Source: Pseudotamlana agarivorans
Lineage (GTDB): Bacteria; Bacteroidota; Bacteroidia; Flavobacteriales; Flavobacteriaceae
DNA length: 64,000 nt
Reading direction: 5' to 3'
Assembly: GCF_001642835.1 (NCBI RefSeq)
Contig: NZ_LXEI01000012.1
Coordinates: 1-64,000, forward strand
The translations under genes were made by a program, and so were the position numbers. This document shows positions 6,628 to 50,940 of the stretch, one piece after another. The first letter of the stretch is position 1. The number at the start of each line of letters is the position of its first letter. Under the pieces are notes generated by a model. The model ran no database searches and was not told the origin of the DNA. It was given only the letters and a program-made list of their open reading frames with translations.

Positions 6628-7161
6628 TTACTCGATTTTAACTTGCTTTGGGGGCTGCATAACGTTTCCGCAGTTAGGGCAATGCCGTTTGGTTTCATCG
6701 CTGTAGAATTTATCGAATATTTTAGGCATATCGGTTTCGATGTTTTCTAAAGTGAAATCTTCTTCGTAGAGCTTGGTAACACAATTTTCACAAAACCATA
6801 AAAGTGCATCTCGCATGCCTTCCGGACGCTTGTATTCAATTACTAATCCAACGGTATTGGCACCGCGTTGGGGCGAATGAGGTACTTTTGGTGGTAATAA
6901 GTAAATGTCCCCTTCTTTGATGTGTACATCCTTTGGGGTGCCTTTATCAATAATCTTTAAAATAATATCGCCTTCAACCTGATAGAAAAACTCTGGTGTT
7001 TCATTATAATGGTAATCTTTTCGGTTGTTAGGACCGCCAACCACCATCACGATAAAATCGCCATCCTTCCAAACCACTTTATTTCCTACAGGTGGTTTTA
7101 GGAGATGTCTGTTTTCTTCAATCCAAGCTTTAAAGTTTATAGGAGATGTTAAATGACTCAT
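6628..7161 (-). CDS. nbaC: 3-hydroxyanthranilate 3,4-dioxygenase
   Basis: This 177-residue cupin opens the ring of 3-hydroxyanthranilate to 2-amino-3-carboxymuconate semialdehyde with O2. The Fe(II) ligands expected for the bacterial family are all present: His51, Glu57 (HYNETPEFFYQ) and His95 (LPPKVPHSPQRG). A C-terminal rubredoxin-like site is also present as two CxxC pairs (FCENC and HCPNCG), typical of the bacterial dimeric enzyme. The length is normal. Its position between the SDR and ACMSD genes completes the ring-cleavage step of the pathway. Confidence 0.95.
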   Translation of the reverse strand: MSHLTSPINFKAWIEENRHLLKPPVGNKVVWKDGDFIVMVVGGPNNRKDYHYNETPEFFYQVEGDIILKIIDKGTPKDVHIKEGDIYLLPPKVPHSPQRGANTVGLVIEYKRPEGMRDALLWFCENCVTKLYEEDFTLENIETDMPKIFDKFYSDETKRHCPNCGNVMQPPKQVKIE

Positions 7162-44975: not shown

Positions 44976-46637
44976 ATGACCGATTTTATTATTAAGCGTG
45001 CGGCCAACGCAAAAAACGATGTTTTAGCCGGAATTACGGTGTCTTTAGCAATGGTACCCGAAGTGGTAGCTTTTGCTTTTGTGGCACAAATAGATCCTTT
45101 AATGGCACTATCGGGTGCTTTTATAATAGGACTGGTAGCCGCTATTTTCGGAGGTCGACCAGGATTAATTTCTGGTGCAGCAGGAGCAGTAGCCGTTATT
45201 TTTGTTGGTATGATTGCCGAAGGGCATACCCGTGGCATGTTGTTCGATCAGCCTATAGAGAATATGGGCTTTTTCTATTTAATGGCCTGTGTGATCTTAA
45301 TGGGGATTATACAAATATTCGCAGGCGTCTTCAAGTTAGGACGTTTTGTTAGGTTAATTCCGCACCCCGTAATGATGGGCTTTGTTAACGGATTGGCCAT
45401 TGTTATCTTTTGGGCTCAGGTTAAAATGTTTTCTCATAAAAGCTTACATGTTTCAGCCGAAGGCGTTAAAGAATATGTTAATACGTTTATGCAGGGCGCC
45501 GAACTGTACACCATGATTGGCTTAGTAGCTTTAACCATGGGAATTATCTGGTTATTACCAAAAATTACTACTAAAATTCCAGCAGCTTTAACAGCCATAT
45601 TGGTTACCTCATTAGTCGTTGTTGGTTTCGGTATGGATGTTTCAACCGTAGGGTCGTATATTATAGAAGGTGGCGGAACGGGCCTAAAAGGTGAGTTGCC
45701 AATGCCTAATTTAGAATTGTGGGATAAGTTACCTTTCAATTTAGACACCTTAAGTTTTATTTTGCCATATGCCTTTTTAGCGGCCTGTGTGGGATTAATT
45801 GAGTCGTTAATGACCATGAATTTAGTTGATGAACTTATCGACAGTCGTGGTGATGGTAACAGAGAATGTATCGCTCAAGGTGCAGGAAATATCATGTCCG
45901 GACTCTTTGGTGGTACCGGAGGTTGTGGTATGATCGGGCAAACCGTAATTAATATTAAAGCAGGCGGACGTGGAAGACTGTCTGGAATCATGATGGCTCT
46001 AGCCTTACTTACCTTCATTTTATTTACTGATAAATTAATCGAGCAAGTGCCAATAGCCGCTTTAATTGGTGTCATGTTCATGATGGTTATCGAAACTTTT
46101 GCTTGGTCTAGTTTCCGTATTATGCGAAAAATTCCAAAATCAGATGCTGTGGTGCTTATTGTGGTTTCTGCTGTAACGGTAATTTTCGATTTGGCCATTG
46201 CGGTTTTCGTAGGGGTGATTATTTCTGCCTTAGCCTTTGCTTGGGAAAACGCCAAACGTATTCGTGCGCGTAAGCGTATGCGGGAAGATGGTACAAAGGT
46301 TTATGAAATTTGGGGACCTTTATTCTTCGGTTCAATTACCGCTTTCAACGAGAAATTTGATGTAAAAAATGATCCGGATAAGGTGGAAATCGATTTTGTA
46401 GAATCCCGTGTTAGTGATCATTCTGCCATGGAAGCCATTTTTAATTTGGTGAATAAATATGAAGAAGCAGGAAAACAAATCAAACTGAAACATCTTAGCG
46501 AAGATTGTAAATTACTGCTTTATAAATCGAATCCTAAATTTAGAGAAGTGGTTATTGAAGATATCGACGATCCAAGGTACCATTTGGCCGAAAACCCAGA
46601 AGCATTTACAAAAGGTTTATCGGAGTATAAATTTTAG
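44976..46637 (+). CDS. SulP-family inorganic anion transporter
   Basis: This 553-residue protein has about 12-14 hydrophobic helices typical of SulP/SLC26, starting with AGITVSLAMVPEVVAFAFVA. A central GRPGLISGAAGAVAV matches the family substrate-site region. A C-terminal cytoplasmic STAS domain (about 440-540) contains VYEIWGPLFFGSITAFNE and EIDFVESRVSDHSAMEA. Members carry sulfate, bicarbonate or other anions. The substrate is not deducible. The heptamer array and promoter are directly upstream, and the dispersed repeat element directly follows the stop. Confidence 0.92.
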   Translation: MTDFIIKRAANAKNDVLAGITVSLAMVPEVVAFAFVAQIDPLMALSGAFIIGLVAAIFGGRPGLISGAAGAVAVIFVGMIAEGHTRGMLFDQPIENMGFFYLMACVILMGIIQIFAGVFKLGRFVRLIPHPVMMGFVNGLAIVIFWAQVKMFSHKSLHVSAEGVKEYVNTFMQGAELYTMIGLVALTMGIIWLLPKITTKIPAALTAILVTSLVVVGFGMDVSTVGSYIIEGGGTGLKGELPMPNLELWDKLPFNLDTLSFILPYAFLAACVGLIESLMTMNLVDELIDSRGDGNRECIAQGAGNIMSGLFGGTGGCGMIGQTVINIKAGGRGRLSGIMMALALLTFILFTDKLIEQVPIAALIGVMFMMVIETFAWSSFRIMRKIPKSDAVVLIVVSAVTVIFDLAIAVFVGVIISALAFAWENAKRIRARKRMREDGTKVYEIWGPLFFGSITAFNEKFDVKNDPDKVEIDFVESRVSDHSAMEAIFNLVNKYEEAGKQIKLKHLSEDCKLLLYKSNPKFREVVIEDIDDPRYHLAENPEAFTKGLSEYKF

Positions 46638-46645
46638 ATTTTTGT

Positions 46646-46790
46646 GGGCGTTACCCAAGGGGCGGACTTTCCGCTATATCTTTTTTTATTAAGAGTCCTT
46701 GATTAATTTGTCGTTTTTTATACATGAAACGTATCCCAGTTCCATCAACTTTTTTGCTAAAAAAAGGATGCCGCTGCAATCCCTAACGCG
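46646..46790. repeat. Interspersed repeat, copy 2 (GGGCGTTACCC...TAACGC)
   Basis: This 145-nt element starts GGGCGTTACCC 9 nt after the SulP stop codon and ends CAATCCCTAACGC. It shares its ends with copy 1 at 3798-3880, but the interior is longer. The middle contains AT-rich DNA that may be a later insertion. The rest of the 366-nt gap to 47003 has no recognised feature. Confidence 0.7.
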
Positions 46791-47003
46791 GAGGATTCCA
46801 CTATTTAACTTTACTCTTTTATCGTATAATATTTTAAACAAGCGTAGTTATAAAAGTGTTGTTGCGTTTTAAAAATAAATTTCTACGGTTTTTTTAGGAA
46901 TGACTTTATATTTTTGAAACATGTAATTTGTTAGTTGGTTGATTTTGTGATGTTTAATTATTTTTTTTATTTTAGAGAAAACTAATCTTAAAACATTTAA
47001 TTA

Positions 47004-47831
47004 ATGAAAACAAAATTACATCAAAACCGTACTAACCATCATAGGTTACATTTTACTTATTTATTCATTTTATTTAGTCTTTTTGCCTTTTCTCAAACGC
47101 CAGTAGCTACAACTAACACTTTAATCTCAGGAGTAAGCGTCGCATCCGTTTGGCATGAGGAGATTACTGGCGGAAAAACAAACTATGCCATAAATGTTCT
47201 AGATGGTGATCCCGCAACAAACTGGGCAGGACAAAGTGCCGCAATGATGGCCGATCGTGGCGAACCGTTTATTTTTGATTTAGGTGGTACTTACGACTTG
47301 GCTGAGCTTCAGTATTTGACAGTTACAAGAACACCGCCTTACGAATTTCAAATTTGGGTTTCTACCAATACTGAAAGTACAGGAGATTTTGTAAATGTTT
47401 ATCCTGGTCAAGGAAACCACTTTAGTGCCACCGATAACACGTATAAGAGTTTTACGTTTACTCCGATTGCTGGTGCAAAATACGTGATGCTTAAGTGTTA
47501 TGGACGTTCAGACAGTTTTTGGAATACCATAAGCGAATTACTTTTTTATTCGGCGAGTACAGCTTCAGTTGAGGACAATGAATTAAGCGGATTTGCCCTA
47601 TATCCAAACCCAGCCAAGTATTCCTTTACATTAAGTAATTTAAGTGACAAAGTAGCCAAAGTTCAGGTTGTCGATTTACTAGGTAAATCAGTATTAACTA
47701 AAACCATCGACAGTTTTTCTAAGGAGCTAAGCATAAACACTTCCAATTTAGTAAATGGTATTTATTTAGTAAGATTGTCAGGTGCTTCTGGAGGTTTAAG
47801 TGCTTCTAGAAAAATGGTTGTACAGCACTAA
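47004..47831 (+). CDS. Secreted F5/8-type domain protein with T9SS sorting domain
   Basis: This 275-residue protein has a long signal region (basic residues 1-16, then hydrophobic 17-32 ending FAFSQ). One discoidin-like beta-sandwich domain (about 40-185) contains NVLDGDPATNWAGQS and FIFDLGGTYDLAELQYL, as in carbohydrate-binding F5/8 C domains. The last 80 residues are a type A type IX secretion sorting domain (LYPNPAKYSFTLSN and GIYLVRLS ... MVVQ). It is exported and attached to, or released from, the cell surface. No enzyme domain is present. Confidence 0.88.
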   Translation: MKTKLHQNRTNHHRLHFTYLFILFSLFAFSQTPVATTNTLISGVSVASVWHEEITGGKTNYAINVLDGDPATNWAGQSAAMMADRGEPFIFDLGGTYDLAELQYLTVTRTPPYEFQIWVSTNTESTGDFVNVYPGQGNHFSATDNTYKSFTFTPIAGAKYVMLKCYGRSDSFWNTISELLFYSASTASVEDNELSGFALYPNPAKYSFTLSNLSDKVAKVQVVDLLGKSVLTKTIDSFSKELSINTSNLVNGIYLVRLSGASGGLSASRKMVVQH

Positions 47832-47872
47832 ATTTACTTATTTTATTTTATGATAGACATATGCTGTCATTT

Positions 47873-47913
47873 AAAAAAGGGATACGATTTAAAATAAATC
47901 GCATCCCTTTTTT
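47873..47913 (+). terminator. Terminator after T9SS cargo gene
   Basis: AAAAAAGGGAT with CGATTT pairs with AATCG and ATCCCTTTTTT with one mismatch, and it ends in T. The arms are 47873-47890 and 47896-47913. Confidence 0.85.
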
Positions 47914-47952
47914 ATTAAATTATAATATTTTGAAGGTACCTACGAATTGGCG

Positions 47953-48108
47953 TTATTTCATACGGACACTTGTAGGAACCAATTTAGTGTAATCACCATG
48001 GTTTCTTATCACATCACGAACAATATTGGAAGCGATGTATGAGGTTTGGGCGGAGGTTAAAAGAAATATGGTTTCTATAGGCGCTAAATCTCTGTTGGTA
48101 TGCGCTAT
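47953..48108 (-). pseudogene. Truncated copy of the coaD 3' end
   Basis: About 158 nt (47951-48108) match the 3' end of coaD (49287-49444) in the same orientation. From 47974 rightward only two mismatches occur in about 135 nt. On the minus strand it still encodes the last 50 or so residues of CoaD, through RNHGDYTKLVP and a stop, but the final residues read TSVRMK instead of DSVRVK. There is no start and no upstream part. The two copies bracket the sulfotransferase gene. Confidence 0.9.
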
Positions 48109-48304
48109 GGTTTTTGTTTTGAATTTTAGTAATAGAAAACGATATATGAAAGGATTAAATTAACTTGACCTAGGGTTTTATTTTCATGTTGACATCATAA
48201 AATGCTGATTTATAAAATACTGGAAAAGTAGGATTGTGTATGATAATTTGGTTAGTAGAATTATCTTCAAATGAAATGTCATCAGTTTTCTTAAAATATA
48301 TTTG
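48109..48304. other. Intergenic region between coaD remnant and sulfotransferase
   Basis: About 196 nt of AT-rich DNA without a recognised gene or repeat follow the coaD remnant. No insertion-sequence ends or target-site duplications are evident. Confidence 0.4.
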
Positions 48305-49270
48305 TTACTGTATTAATCTATAAGTTAGCGATTTTAAGTTTGGTGTAGGAGAGTAAGCTGAGTATAATTTAAAATTGAAATAATCAAATATAATTTGAAT
48401 TTTGTCCTTTGTATTGGAGTCTAGTGAATCAATATTTTTGCTCAACTGTAATTGAGGAGATTTTTTTAGATTTTTACTAAAATCTGTAGAGCTTGGTTTT
48501 CTGAAGTCTATTTTTTCTAAAGGGCCACTTATTTTATGAAGATTAGTTTCTTTTAGAATCCTCTGAACCTCTTTTTTAGGGGTTGATATTAAATCAGAAT
48601 AAAAAACGACACATAATTTATTAGTATCCAAATTTTCAAGTGTGGTGCAATTATTTAAACACCAAAAAGCGATATACCACTCTAAATCCGATTCAAGCTG
48701 GTTTAAGAAGGTGGTATGTTCAATGAATCTTTTATTGTCTTTATGTTGAAATATTTTAGAATGTAATTCATTTTTAGATTGCTTAAAAGCTTTAATTTGT
48801 GAAACACACGTGTCTATAGGATGTCTGATTAGAAATATCGGTTTGAATTTAAAATTAAAGTTTTTTAATAAATAAGGTACAAGCATATTGGCTCGAACAT
48901 ATTTTGTAAGTACAAGTTCTGCGTTAAAAATTTGTGTTGGGGTTAGGTATTTTCTAGTCCAATCTGAATGAATTTTAAACTCATGTGTCTTTTTAAAGAA
49001 ATGATAGTAATCTGGATTTGTTTCTATTGCAGGAATGTAGGGTCTAAAACCAAATCCTTCCTTGTTTGGTAATTTGCCTTTATCTAAGTGGAGGGGTTCC
49101 CAGTTAATACATACCGGTAATAGCATGGTTAAAATCTCCATTAACCATGTGCTGCCTCCTCTAGGTTCGCTGAAAATAATTATACTTTCAGAAGGCTTAA
49201 ATCGCTTAGTTGTTAAAATGACTTTGAGGAAGGTGTCTTTTGCGGATTTTATAATTTTATTCTTGTTCAT
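48305..49270 (-). CDS. PAPS-dependent sulfotransferase-like protein
   Basis: This 321-residue protein has the 5'-phosphosulfate loop SEPRGGSTWLMEIL (about residues 34-47) and the 3'-phosphate-binding motif FLIRHPIDTCVSQIKAFK (about 159-176). It probably transfers sulfate from PAPS to a carbohydrate or lipid acceptor. There is no signal peptide. Family members in marine Bacteroidota often act with exopolysaccharide or glycolipid genes. Here the gene stands alone between a coaD fragment and coaD itself, and its local base composition is AT-rich. The arrangement suggests recent insertion. Confidence 0.85.
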   Translation of the reverse strand: MNKNKIIKSAKDTFLKVILTTKRFKPSESIIIFSEPRGGSTWLMEILTMLLPVCINWEPLHLDKGKLPNKEGFGFRPYIPAIETNPDYYHFFKKTHEFKIHSDWTRKYLTPTQIFNAELVLTKYVRANMLVPYLLKNFNFKFKPIFLIRHPIDTCVSQIKAFKQSKNELHSKIFQHKDNKRFIEHTTFLNQLESDLEWYIAFWCLNNCTTLENLDTNKLCVVFYSDLISTPKKEVQRILKETNLHKISGPLEKIDFRKPSSTDFSKNLKKSPQLQLSKNIDSLDSNTKDKIQIIFDYFNFKLYSAYSPTPNLKSLTYRLIQ

Positions 49271-49288
49271 ACTATGTTTTTGTAAACG

Positions 49289-49744
49289 TTATTTAACTCT
49301 AACACTATCAGGAACCAATTTAGTATAATCACCATGGTTTCTTATCACATCACGAACAATATTGGAAGCGATGTATGAGGTTTGGGCGGAGGTTAAAAGA
49401 AATATGGTTTCTATAGGAGCTAAATCTCTGTTGGTATGCGCTATAGCCTTTTCAAATTCGAAGTCTGCCGGATTTCTAAGCCCTCTTAAAATAAATTCTA
49501 CCCCAATTTCTTTACAAAAATCGACGGTTAAGCCTTGGTACGTAGCCACCTTGATTTTTGGATTGTGAGCAAAAGTCTCTTCAATAAACGTTTTACGTTG
49601 ATCTAATGAAAACATGTATTTTTTATCGGCATTGACACCAATAGCCACTATAATTTCATCAAATAAAGTGGACGCCCGTGTTATGATGTCTACATGACCT
49701 AATGTTAGTGGGTCAAACGAACCTGGAAATAATGCTTTTTTCAT
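49289..49744 (-). CDS. coaD: Phosphopantetheine adenylyltransferase
   Basis: This 151-residue enzyme catalyses the penultimate step of CoA synthesis. The nucleotidyltransferase motif GSFDPLTLGHVDII (T/HxGH) is at about residues 8-21. RGLRNPADFEFE and the ATP-binding TSYIASNIVRDVIRNHGD are intact. It is full-length even though its 3' part is duplicated at 47953-48108. It lies 18 nt upstream of the sulfotransferase gene in the same direction, and ddl is upstream. Confidence 0.95.
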   Translation of the reverse strand: MKKALFPGSFDPLTLGHVDIITRASTLFDEIIVAIGVNADKKYMFSLDQRKTFIEETFAHNPKIKVATYQGLTVDFCKEIGVEFILRGLRNPADFEFEKAIAHTNRDLAPIETIFLLTSAQTSYIASNIVRDVIRNHGDYTKLVPDSVRVK

Positions 49745-49841: not shown

Positions 49842-50822
49842 TTAGGCACCCTTCAAAGCTTCCTCAATGGCATTCGAGAATAAATCAGCTAATGAAATAT
49901 TCGCAGCCGCAGCCTGTTGAGGCAAAATGCTCTCACGGGTTAAACCTGGAATGGTATTCATTTCTAACATATGAGGTTCACCATCTTTAAAAATAAACTC
50001 ACTGCGACTAAAGCCTTTCATTTTTAAAATCTCGTAAACTTTTTTGGCTTCGGTACTCACTTTTTCTTCTTGTTCTTTTGATAATCGCGCTGGCGTTATT
50101 TCTTGAGATTTGCCTTCATACTTGGCTTGGTAATCGAAAAAGTCATTTTCAGAAACAATTTCAGTAATAGGAAGCACTATAATTTCTCCTTTGTAGCTAA
50201 TCACTCCTACTGAAACTTCTGTACCTTCTAAAAAGGATTCAATAATAATTTCATCATCTTCTTTAAAAGCCACATCAATAGCATCTTGTAACTCGGTTTT
50301 TTTGTACACTTTACTCACACCAAAACTACTGCCTGCTTTATTAGCCTTTACAAAGCAAGGTAATCCTACTTTAGCAACAATGGCTTCTGTGTCCACAGCA
50401 TCACCAAGGTTTAGGTAGTAAGATTCGGCGGTTTTTATACCATAGGGTTTTAAAACACTTAGTAAATCACGTTTGTTATAGGTCAAGGCTGCTTGATACA
50501 TATTACAGCTGGTATGCGGTAAATTAAGCATTTGAAAATAGGCTTGCATAAAACCATCTTCTCCTGGAGATCCGTGAATGGCGTTAAAAACACAATCAAA
50601 GGTATATTTTTCGCCATGTGCAGTAGTCGAAAAATCATTTTTATCTATAGGGTGTTCAAGCCCTTCTTCATCAACGTAAACCCATCTGTCTTTAAAAATA
50701 TGAATACGGAAAGGCGTGTATTTCGATTTATCTAAAGTCTCGTAAACCACATTTCCGCTGGTTAGAGAGATCTTATATTCGCTGGAATAACCTCCCATAA
50801 TGATGGCAATGTTTTTTTTCAT
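49842..50822 (-). CDS. ddl: D-alanine--D-alanine ligase
   Basis: This 326-residue ATP-grasp ligase makes D-Ala-D-Ala for peptidoglycan. The N-terminus MKKNIAIIMGGYSSEYKISL and later HGSPGEDGFMQAYF are family motifs. ATP-grasp residues follow in CFVKANKAGSSFGV, and the metal site is in EMNTIPGLT near the C-terminus. The start is taken at ATG 50822; an ATG eight codons upstream (50846) is possible. It is divergent from the PASTA protein gene. Confidence 0.94.
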   Translation of the reverse strand: MKKNIAIIMGGYSSEYKISLTSGNVVYETLDKSKYTPFRIHIFKDRWVYVDEEGLEHPIDKNDFSTTAHGEKYTFDCVFNAIHGSPGEDGFMQAYFQMLNLPHTSCNMYQAALTYNKRDLLSVLKPYGIKTAESYYLNLGDAVDTEAIVAKVGLPCFVKANKAGSSFGVSKVYKKTELQDAIDVAFKEDDEIIIESFLEGTEVSVGVISYKGEIIVLPITEIVSENDFFDYQAKYEGKSQEITPARLSKEQEEKVSTEAKKVYEILKMKGFSRSEFIFKDGEPHMLEMNTIPGLTRESILPQQAAAANISLADLFSNAIEEALKGA

Positions 50823-50940
50823 TGTTACTTTTATTATAGTTTCCATTAGTTTACACCTTAATCTTGCAATAAATGGTGTTTATTATAAGTTAAGCTAAAA
50901 TATCATATAAATGGCAAAAGAAAAAACAGTTCTGTTTTTA

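Follow-up and report, generated by a model that had tools for sequence, protein, structure and literature searches.

The insertion of prophage e14 at icd duplicates a gene end, and this end is similar in length to the repeat of the coaD 3' end that is the subject of the present study. Prophage e14 has its own integrase and a constant core, however, in which it differs from the coaD case.

Duplicated gene ends also occur next to inserts that arrived by other means. PCR indicated a partial lacZ duplication in 56 of 60 clones from a conjugation test with E. coli; 14 of these duplications were sequenced, ranged from 109 to 950 bp and were explained by a single crossover with a trimmed and recircularized molecule (PMC3240628; this and the other papers cited here are drawn upon in excerpt). 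As presented in these excerpts, the E. coli duplications are like the coaD case in that a gene end is duplicated over a variable length, beside an insert and with no dedicated recombinase; they were obtained with a plasmid in conjugation, however, whereas the coaD case is inferred from natural genomes and involves copies that look like diverged alleles (PMC3240628). Homology-facilitated illegitimate recombination (HFIR) resembles our proposal for coaD in that one homologous and one illegitimate joint together bring in foreign DNA. According to the excerpted text, HFIR joints show 3–10 bp of microhomology in most classical cases, but none in three of four E. coli joints (PMC3240628). Classical HFIR, as far as described there, deletes resident DNA of similar size, whereas the coaD locus keeps the gene end as a duplicate; the sister species differs behind coaD.

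Insertion with long target duplication, found in Helicobacter pylori (Nobusato et al. 2000, as related in parts of PMC1643837 and PMC4978471), likewise produces cargo flanked by long direct target repeats. In these accounts the cargo frequently consists of restriction-modification genes, whereas at the coaD locus it is a sulfotransferase gene, the copies are 6% different and the tail is mosaic. In Vibrio T6SS immunity arrays, upstream-anchored exchange is described in the excerpts as displacing old genes and gene ends downstream; these arrays are effector loci, whereas in the coaD case a housekeeping gene would be the anchor (PMC5361080). Related ideas, again as excerpted, are homology-assisted illegitimate recombination in small variable segments (PMC2884548) and the formation of merodiploids by transformation (PMC3784515). 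Within our partial coverage of the literature, we recognized no report on coaD as an insertion place and found none on a gene-end scarring process in Flavobacteriaceae or Tamlana.

A duplicated coaD end beside a sulfotransferase gene

The locus is part of a window of 64,000 nucleotides, i.e. the whole stretch of DNA analysed, from the genome of Pseudotamlana agarivorans (GCF_001642835.1, contig NZ_LXEI01000012.1, positions 1 to 64,000; here G000). Its sister species G004 is the nearest of five congeners compared. A direct repeat of 165 nt and 92% identity links positions 47951–48115 with 49287–49451, and its best stretch (47951–48108 versus 49287–49444; 158 nt) is 93.7% identical (table 1). 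With an E value of about 4e-66, the match of the coaD fragment to the gene's own DNA is not due to chance. A preliminary description of this DNA had already placed a 158-nt repeat of the coaD 3' end with an intact stop codon to the left of the sulfotransferase gene and full-length coaD to its right, which our analysis confirms; the span that it gave, 47951–49444, is right for the repeat ends, but position 49444 lies inside coaD, which extends to 49744. In the 3.83 Mb of the genome (50 contigs), these two copies were found and no third one.

Table 1. Features of the coaD locus in the window.
Feature	Position	Strand	Remarks
SulP-type sulfate permease	44976..46637	+	frequent coaD neighbour; 93.7% nt identity to G004
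Return of similarity to G004 behind coaD	46601..46791	no strand	proposed right edge of exchanged block
F5/8 type C protein with secretion-system sorting domain	47004..47831	+	Pfam Por_Secre_tail
Repeat copy D, coaD 3' fragment	47951..48108	-	in-frame stop intact; tail TSVRMK
AACAAAA at cargo/fragment joint	48112..48118	-	
Cargo right flank	48119..48304	-	186 nt, about 24% GC
Sulfotransferase, cargo	48305..49270	-	321 aa, complete; PF00685 (E 1.5e-9), PF13469 (E 3.4e-9)
Repeat copy P, coaD 3' end and 2 nt past the stop	49287..49444	-	
coaD, full length, proximal copy P	49289..49744	-	151 aa; Pfam CTP_transf_like
ddl	49842..50846	-	92.0% nt identity to G004; left flank of proposed exchanged block

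The ORFs of at least 50 aa between the two copies are the sulfotransferase gene and one antisense ORF of 88 aa, and no recombinase was found there. The cargo is indeed, as proposed previously, a single sulfotransferase gene, intact and supported by Pfam. Its ATG lies 18 nt past the coaD stop codon, and its GC content is 29.9% versus 36.2% for coaD. Both the cargo and its right flank are without a match in seven loci of relatives.

Sulfotransferases related to the cargo are sparsely distributed: five of 60 relatives (the own genome counted) have one, the other four being 28–40% identical, and the same count, again with the own genome, was obtained for 397 genomes of the family at E 1e-25, where G125 has the best relative (46%); at E 1e-20, 2 of 395 genomes of the order (own genome counted) gave a match. 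Against the PDB, only weak matches to SULT1A1 (E 5e-4) appeared. None of them was seen beside coaD: G002, G022, G033 and G036 carry it on a contig other than that of coaD, and there is no coaD within roughly 1.5 kb on either side of the G125 gene. To judge by eye, the relatives in G002, G033, G036 and G125 have glycosyltransferase or sugar genes as neighbours, so that the predicted substrate is probably a surface polysaccharide. That the sulfotransferase gene lies near a sulfate permease in G000 is likely to be chance, because SulP is a usual neighbour of coaD in Flavobacteriaceae.

Parallel cases in other genomes

When the last 60 residues of the coaD product were searched in 397 genomes of the family, 391 gave a match and three, i.e. 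G000, G026 and G284, a second one. A weak second match in G056 (26%, on another contig), obtained earlier with a set of 60 genomes, had been taken as unrelated. G026 and G284 share the order coaD–cargo–coaD 3' fragment, with unrelated cargo and no recombinase recognized in the inserts. The G284 repeat has a length of 502 nt (96.6% identity) and encloses a Phd/YefM–YoeB-like pair, and G036 from the same genus has an empty site behind coaD. In G026, a repeat of 312 nt (98.1%), made up of 129 nt of coaD and 183 nt beyond it, encloses the gene for a 608-aa protein with beta-helix domains. Repeats of target DNA thus flank the cargo, and empty homologues have a single coaD end; for G000, where a look at relatives without the sulfotransferase had been suggested, the sister species G004 indeed shows a single coaD end without cargo.

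G277, which belongs to the same genus as G026, has the same cargo gene in the same place without the repeat, so that cargo and repeat are separable. Between these two genomes, identity of the cargo (80.2%) is comparable with that of ddl (77.2%) and coaD (78.1%), which makes the G026 cargo look as old as the G026/G277 split and the repeat younger or independent. The link between sulfotransferase and repeat drawn in the preliminary description thus finds a counterexample in this parallel case, with its other cargo, whereas no relative with the sulfotransferase beside coaD was found.

At 631 aa, SulP of G026 (locus L038, 4446–6341) contains an additional internal stretch, and its similarity to G277 is uneven, so that it may be a mosaic. 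Three genomes of the genus to which G284 belongs (loci L137, L144 and L145) share a 72-aa ORF behind coaD; that of L144 is without Pfam match and adjoins a ParE-like toxin gene.

Differences between the two copies

The fragment ends in PTSVRMK-stop, the full-length gene in PDSVRVK-stop, and the difference in the last residues pointed out previously therefore stands. Eight of the 10 mismatches in 158 nt fall into the last 21 coding nucleotides (stop included) and two before, a clustering with a Fisher p of 1e-6 when 133 nt are counted for the part before the tail. With the core of the two copies identical at 131 of 133 positions and the tail at 11 of 19, at least two exchanges, or else gene conversion, must have taken place. 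At its end, the full gene agrees with G004 coaD in 16 of 18 nt, whereas the end of the fragment agrees with G004 in 9 of 18; among 11 genes compared, those of G013 and G024 come nearest to the fragment end (13/19 nt), and TSVRMK is found in none of 114 tails listed (some redundant), with DSVRVK and near forms being common. Which C terminus is ancestral had been raised as a question before, and it would appear to be the full gene's end, rather than the fragment's, that resembles the sister species, contrary to an element model; this is only suggestive, since the coaD genes of G000 and G004 are themselves discordant. The fragment core is identical to G004 at 116 of 133 positions, which is not significantly below ddl (p = 0.07), and the fragment may be a remnant of the resident allele.

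A fragment that was copied at the time of insertion and then drifted should show mostly non-synonymous coding differences. Yet synonymous differences between copies account for 4/4 in G026, 5/7 in G284 and 2/2 in the G000 core, i.e. 11/13 in a pool that leaves out the eight G000 tail mismatches and three at the homology edge, and for 15/24 if all G000 coding mismatches are counted; random changes in these copies would be 22–24% synonymous. Against an expectation of 40%, which is our own estimate for a drifting fragment and a gene under constraint, the excess has p values of 0.001 (11/13) and 0.02 (15/24), but it loses significance against 60% (p = 0.06 and 0.49); the bias is significant also against 25%. 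Synonymous bias and clustered tail are best read as indicating that the copies derive from different alleles, with differences as between two working alleles.

This bears directly on the alternative of an insertion with long target duplication, in which a target stretch would be copied and two repeats, identical at first, would diverge later. It would produce the same anatomy, i.e. cargo within long direct target repeats and an empty site in relatives, but we regard it as rather unlikely: core differences are mainly synonymous on either count, the tail differences of G000 are clustered, unlike those of a decaying copy, and the G026 cargo looks as if it dates to the split from G277, which is without a repeat.

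coaD is discordant with its neighbourhood

Between G000 and G004, nucleotide identity is 92.0% for ddl, 93.7% for SulP, 92.1% for pyrE, 91.5% for ftsH, 98.1% for rsfS and 89.5% for birA, but only 80.2% over 434 nt for coaD, with the drop occurring at or near the start codon. The two genomes differ at 86 of 434 positions in coaD versus 80 of 1003 in ddl (p = 8e-10), and their tree distance is 0.417 for coaD and 0.121 for ddl. Measured against six neighbours at 89.5–98%, this low identity means that coaD has been exchanged in one of the two genomes, and together with the clustered tail it bears out the earlier suggestion that the locus derives in part from another lineage. In the coaD tree the two genomes still group as sisters (support 0.89), so the donor was a congener or close to one.

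The coaD sequences and tree would fit a swap in either G000 or G004. The divergence of the F5/8 gene, however, points to G000 as the genome that may have received DNA: its protein is 58–61% identical to those of G001 and G005, whereas these two share 83.8% and SulP is 93–95% identical among the three. The F5/8 gene is missing behind coaD of G004, and similarity to G004 behind coaD returns at about position 46791. We infer the import of some 2.95 kb, from about 46791 to 49744, from an unsampled congener; the scar would already have been inside this block or have been made about when it arrived. Exactly where similarity to G004 restarts (46759–46791), a stretch of 31–33 nt is identical in G001, G002 and G005, perhaps a dispersed repeat that aids exchange.

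The space behind coaD

Of 104 loci examined, 74 could be anchored by the next neighbour, i.e. SulP, a conserved 583-aa gene (which we take to be M14) or a 762-aa gene; the remaining 30, where none of these came first, were left out. Among the anchored loci, 32 are empty (30 of them with less than 190 nt) and 42 contain at least one ORF of at least 60 aa. The ORFs of these 42 loci form 36 clusters, 26 of them singletons, although not all of these ORFs are convincing and the G284 fragment is itself among them. By comparison, 17 of 102 loci have such an ORF on the opposite side of coaD (p = 5e-8), in samples that are not independent, the loci having been chosen by similarity to G000 coaD and by genus and including the three scarred ones. 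The space 3' of coaD in Flavobacteriaceae thus looks like a place where genes may be swapped. Between ddl and coaD, G003 has two short ORFs of 116 and 106 aa (L041, 718–1360 in coaD orientation).

As a control, the pyrE C terminus in 397 genomes gave two matches in 1 of 378, the second at a contig end. Counting real scars, pyrE has none in 378 and coaD three in 391 (p = 0.25), or two in 390 without G000, the genome that prompted the question (p = 0.50), neither being significant. Variability of the space behind coaD is shown by these data, whereas a preference of such scars for coaD over the control gene is not proven.

No gene-end scar was recognized in 400 kb of G026, where repeats were found within one long gene, in a paralogue pair and as a 135-nt intergenic pair (87%) around a 158-aa ORF. 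The window and other long sequences, 96 in all with some redundancy (1.35 Mb), gave, outside coaD, intraprotein tandem repeats (L045, L057), a short-repeat family (L134) and repeats in L051, L063 and L130. In L130, a 179-nt repeat (1–179 and 1020–1198; 94%) has its second copy over the end of a 319-aa ORF; it may be a gene-end repeat, with the first copy at the edge of the available DNA. In L051 (258–1790), two 359-nt repeats (93%) surround two small ORFs that by eye resemble a toxin-antitoxin pair. In 123 loci, some of them redundant and G284 not among them, the coaD DNA of each locus was compared with the DNA on either side; clear coaD remnants came up only in G000 and G026, the other matches being numerous, short and of a kind expected by chance, apart from a weak one in L084 (59 nt, 78%).

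Discussion

We lean towards reading the coaD locus as a recombination scar of imported DNA rather than as an attachment site, formed by homologous exchange and one illegitimate joint. A cargo-bearing allele (coaD–sulfotransferase) would have been joined to a cargo-free one (coaD–F5/8 gene), with the conserved 3' part of coaD serving as the homology for RecA-type exchange with the imported DNA, and the other end being closed by a single illegitimate joint of the cargo right flank to the inside of coaD. The 158-nt repeat would then be the overlap of two coaD ends, and coaD would be kept whole because the homologous side supplies a complete end. Two routes could lead to this same product: either an imported fragment is end-joined to a circle that integrates by a single crossover, i.e. 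the Campbell-type exchange put forward in the preliminary description, or HFIR joins one end directly, so that the earlier proposal holds as one of two fitting mechanisms. The DSVRVK end most likely came in with the sulfotransferase gene; the sequence of steps, like the use of a RecA route, is what we infer from these genomes. Such an event would be of an ordinary kind and the locus a further example of a known process, in an explanation that draws on three cases only.

The preliminary description had also offered an element that inserts at the coaD 3' end and makes the gene whole again. The locus would then be the remnant of a site-specific integrative element, with a recombinase acting at the gene end and a replacement end being supplied, that was reduced to one gene. 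A whole coaD end, a fragment on the far side, a single cargo and the AACAAAA found at the joint in three cases would all agree with this. No recombinase was found between the copies, however, and repeat lengths of 158, 312 and 502 nt with differing ends argue against a fixed attachment core; moreover, the distal fragment would be expected to keep the resident end, yet it is the proximal end that resembles the sister species. We therefore consider this origin improbable.

The heptamer itself counts against a scar of imported DNA, since a random joint would not predict a shared motif. AACAAAA directly precedes the fragment in G026 (L038, 4120–4126) and G284 (L133 reversed, 6710–6716), and in G000 it is at most two bases from the joint, which is fuzzy and lies in an A run. 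Random position triples shared a 7-mer in 0 of 200,000 trials and AT-rich stretches in 2 of 200,000, for a motif that was picked post hoc. The 74 anchored gaps (60 kb) contain it 40 times, with 33 ± 6 expected, which indicates no general enrichment, and the motif is not present at the joints of the L051, L130, L063 and L134 repeats. Microhomology at the joint amounts to a short A run in G000 and is absent from G026 and G284. We regard AACAAAA at the three joints as unexplained and as a lead.

A tandem duplication of the coaD end plus cargo within one genome, followed by loss of the second cargo, would give the same order of parts and make import at the time of duplication unnecessary; it requires two events, however, and leaves the clustered tail difference and the synonymous bias unaccounted for, and thus has little probability in our view. 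That the coaD 3' end might be a docking place for recombinase-less one-gene units with a defined right end (AACAAAA), joined at varying points inside coaD and moved in trans by a host or phage function, we find very hard to credit.

If the locus is a scar of imported DNA, single genes can enter bacterial chromosomes without a mobile element, the end of a conserved housekeeping gene being used as a homology anchor behind which DNA is exchanged, and the gene-end fragments left behind are easily mistaken for attachment sites. With empty, filled and scarred forms all occurring in related species, coaD of Flavobacteriaceae could serve as a compact test place for this process.
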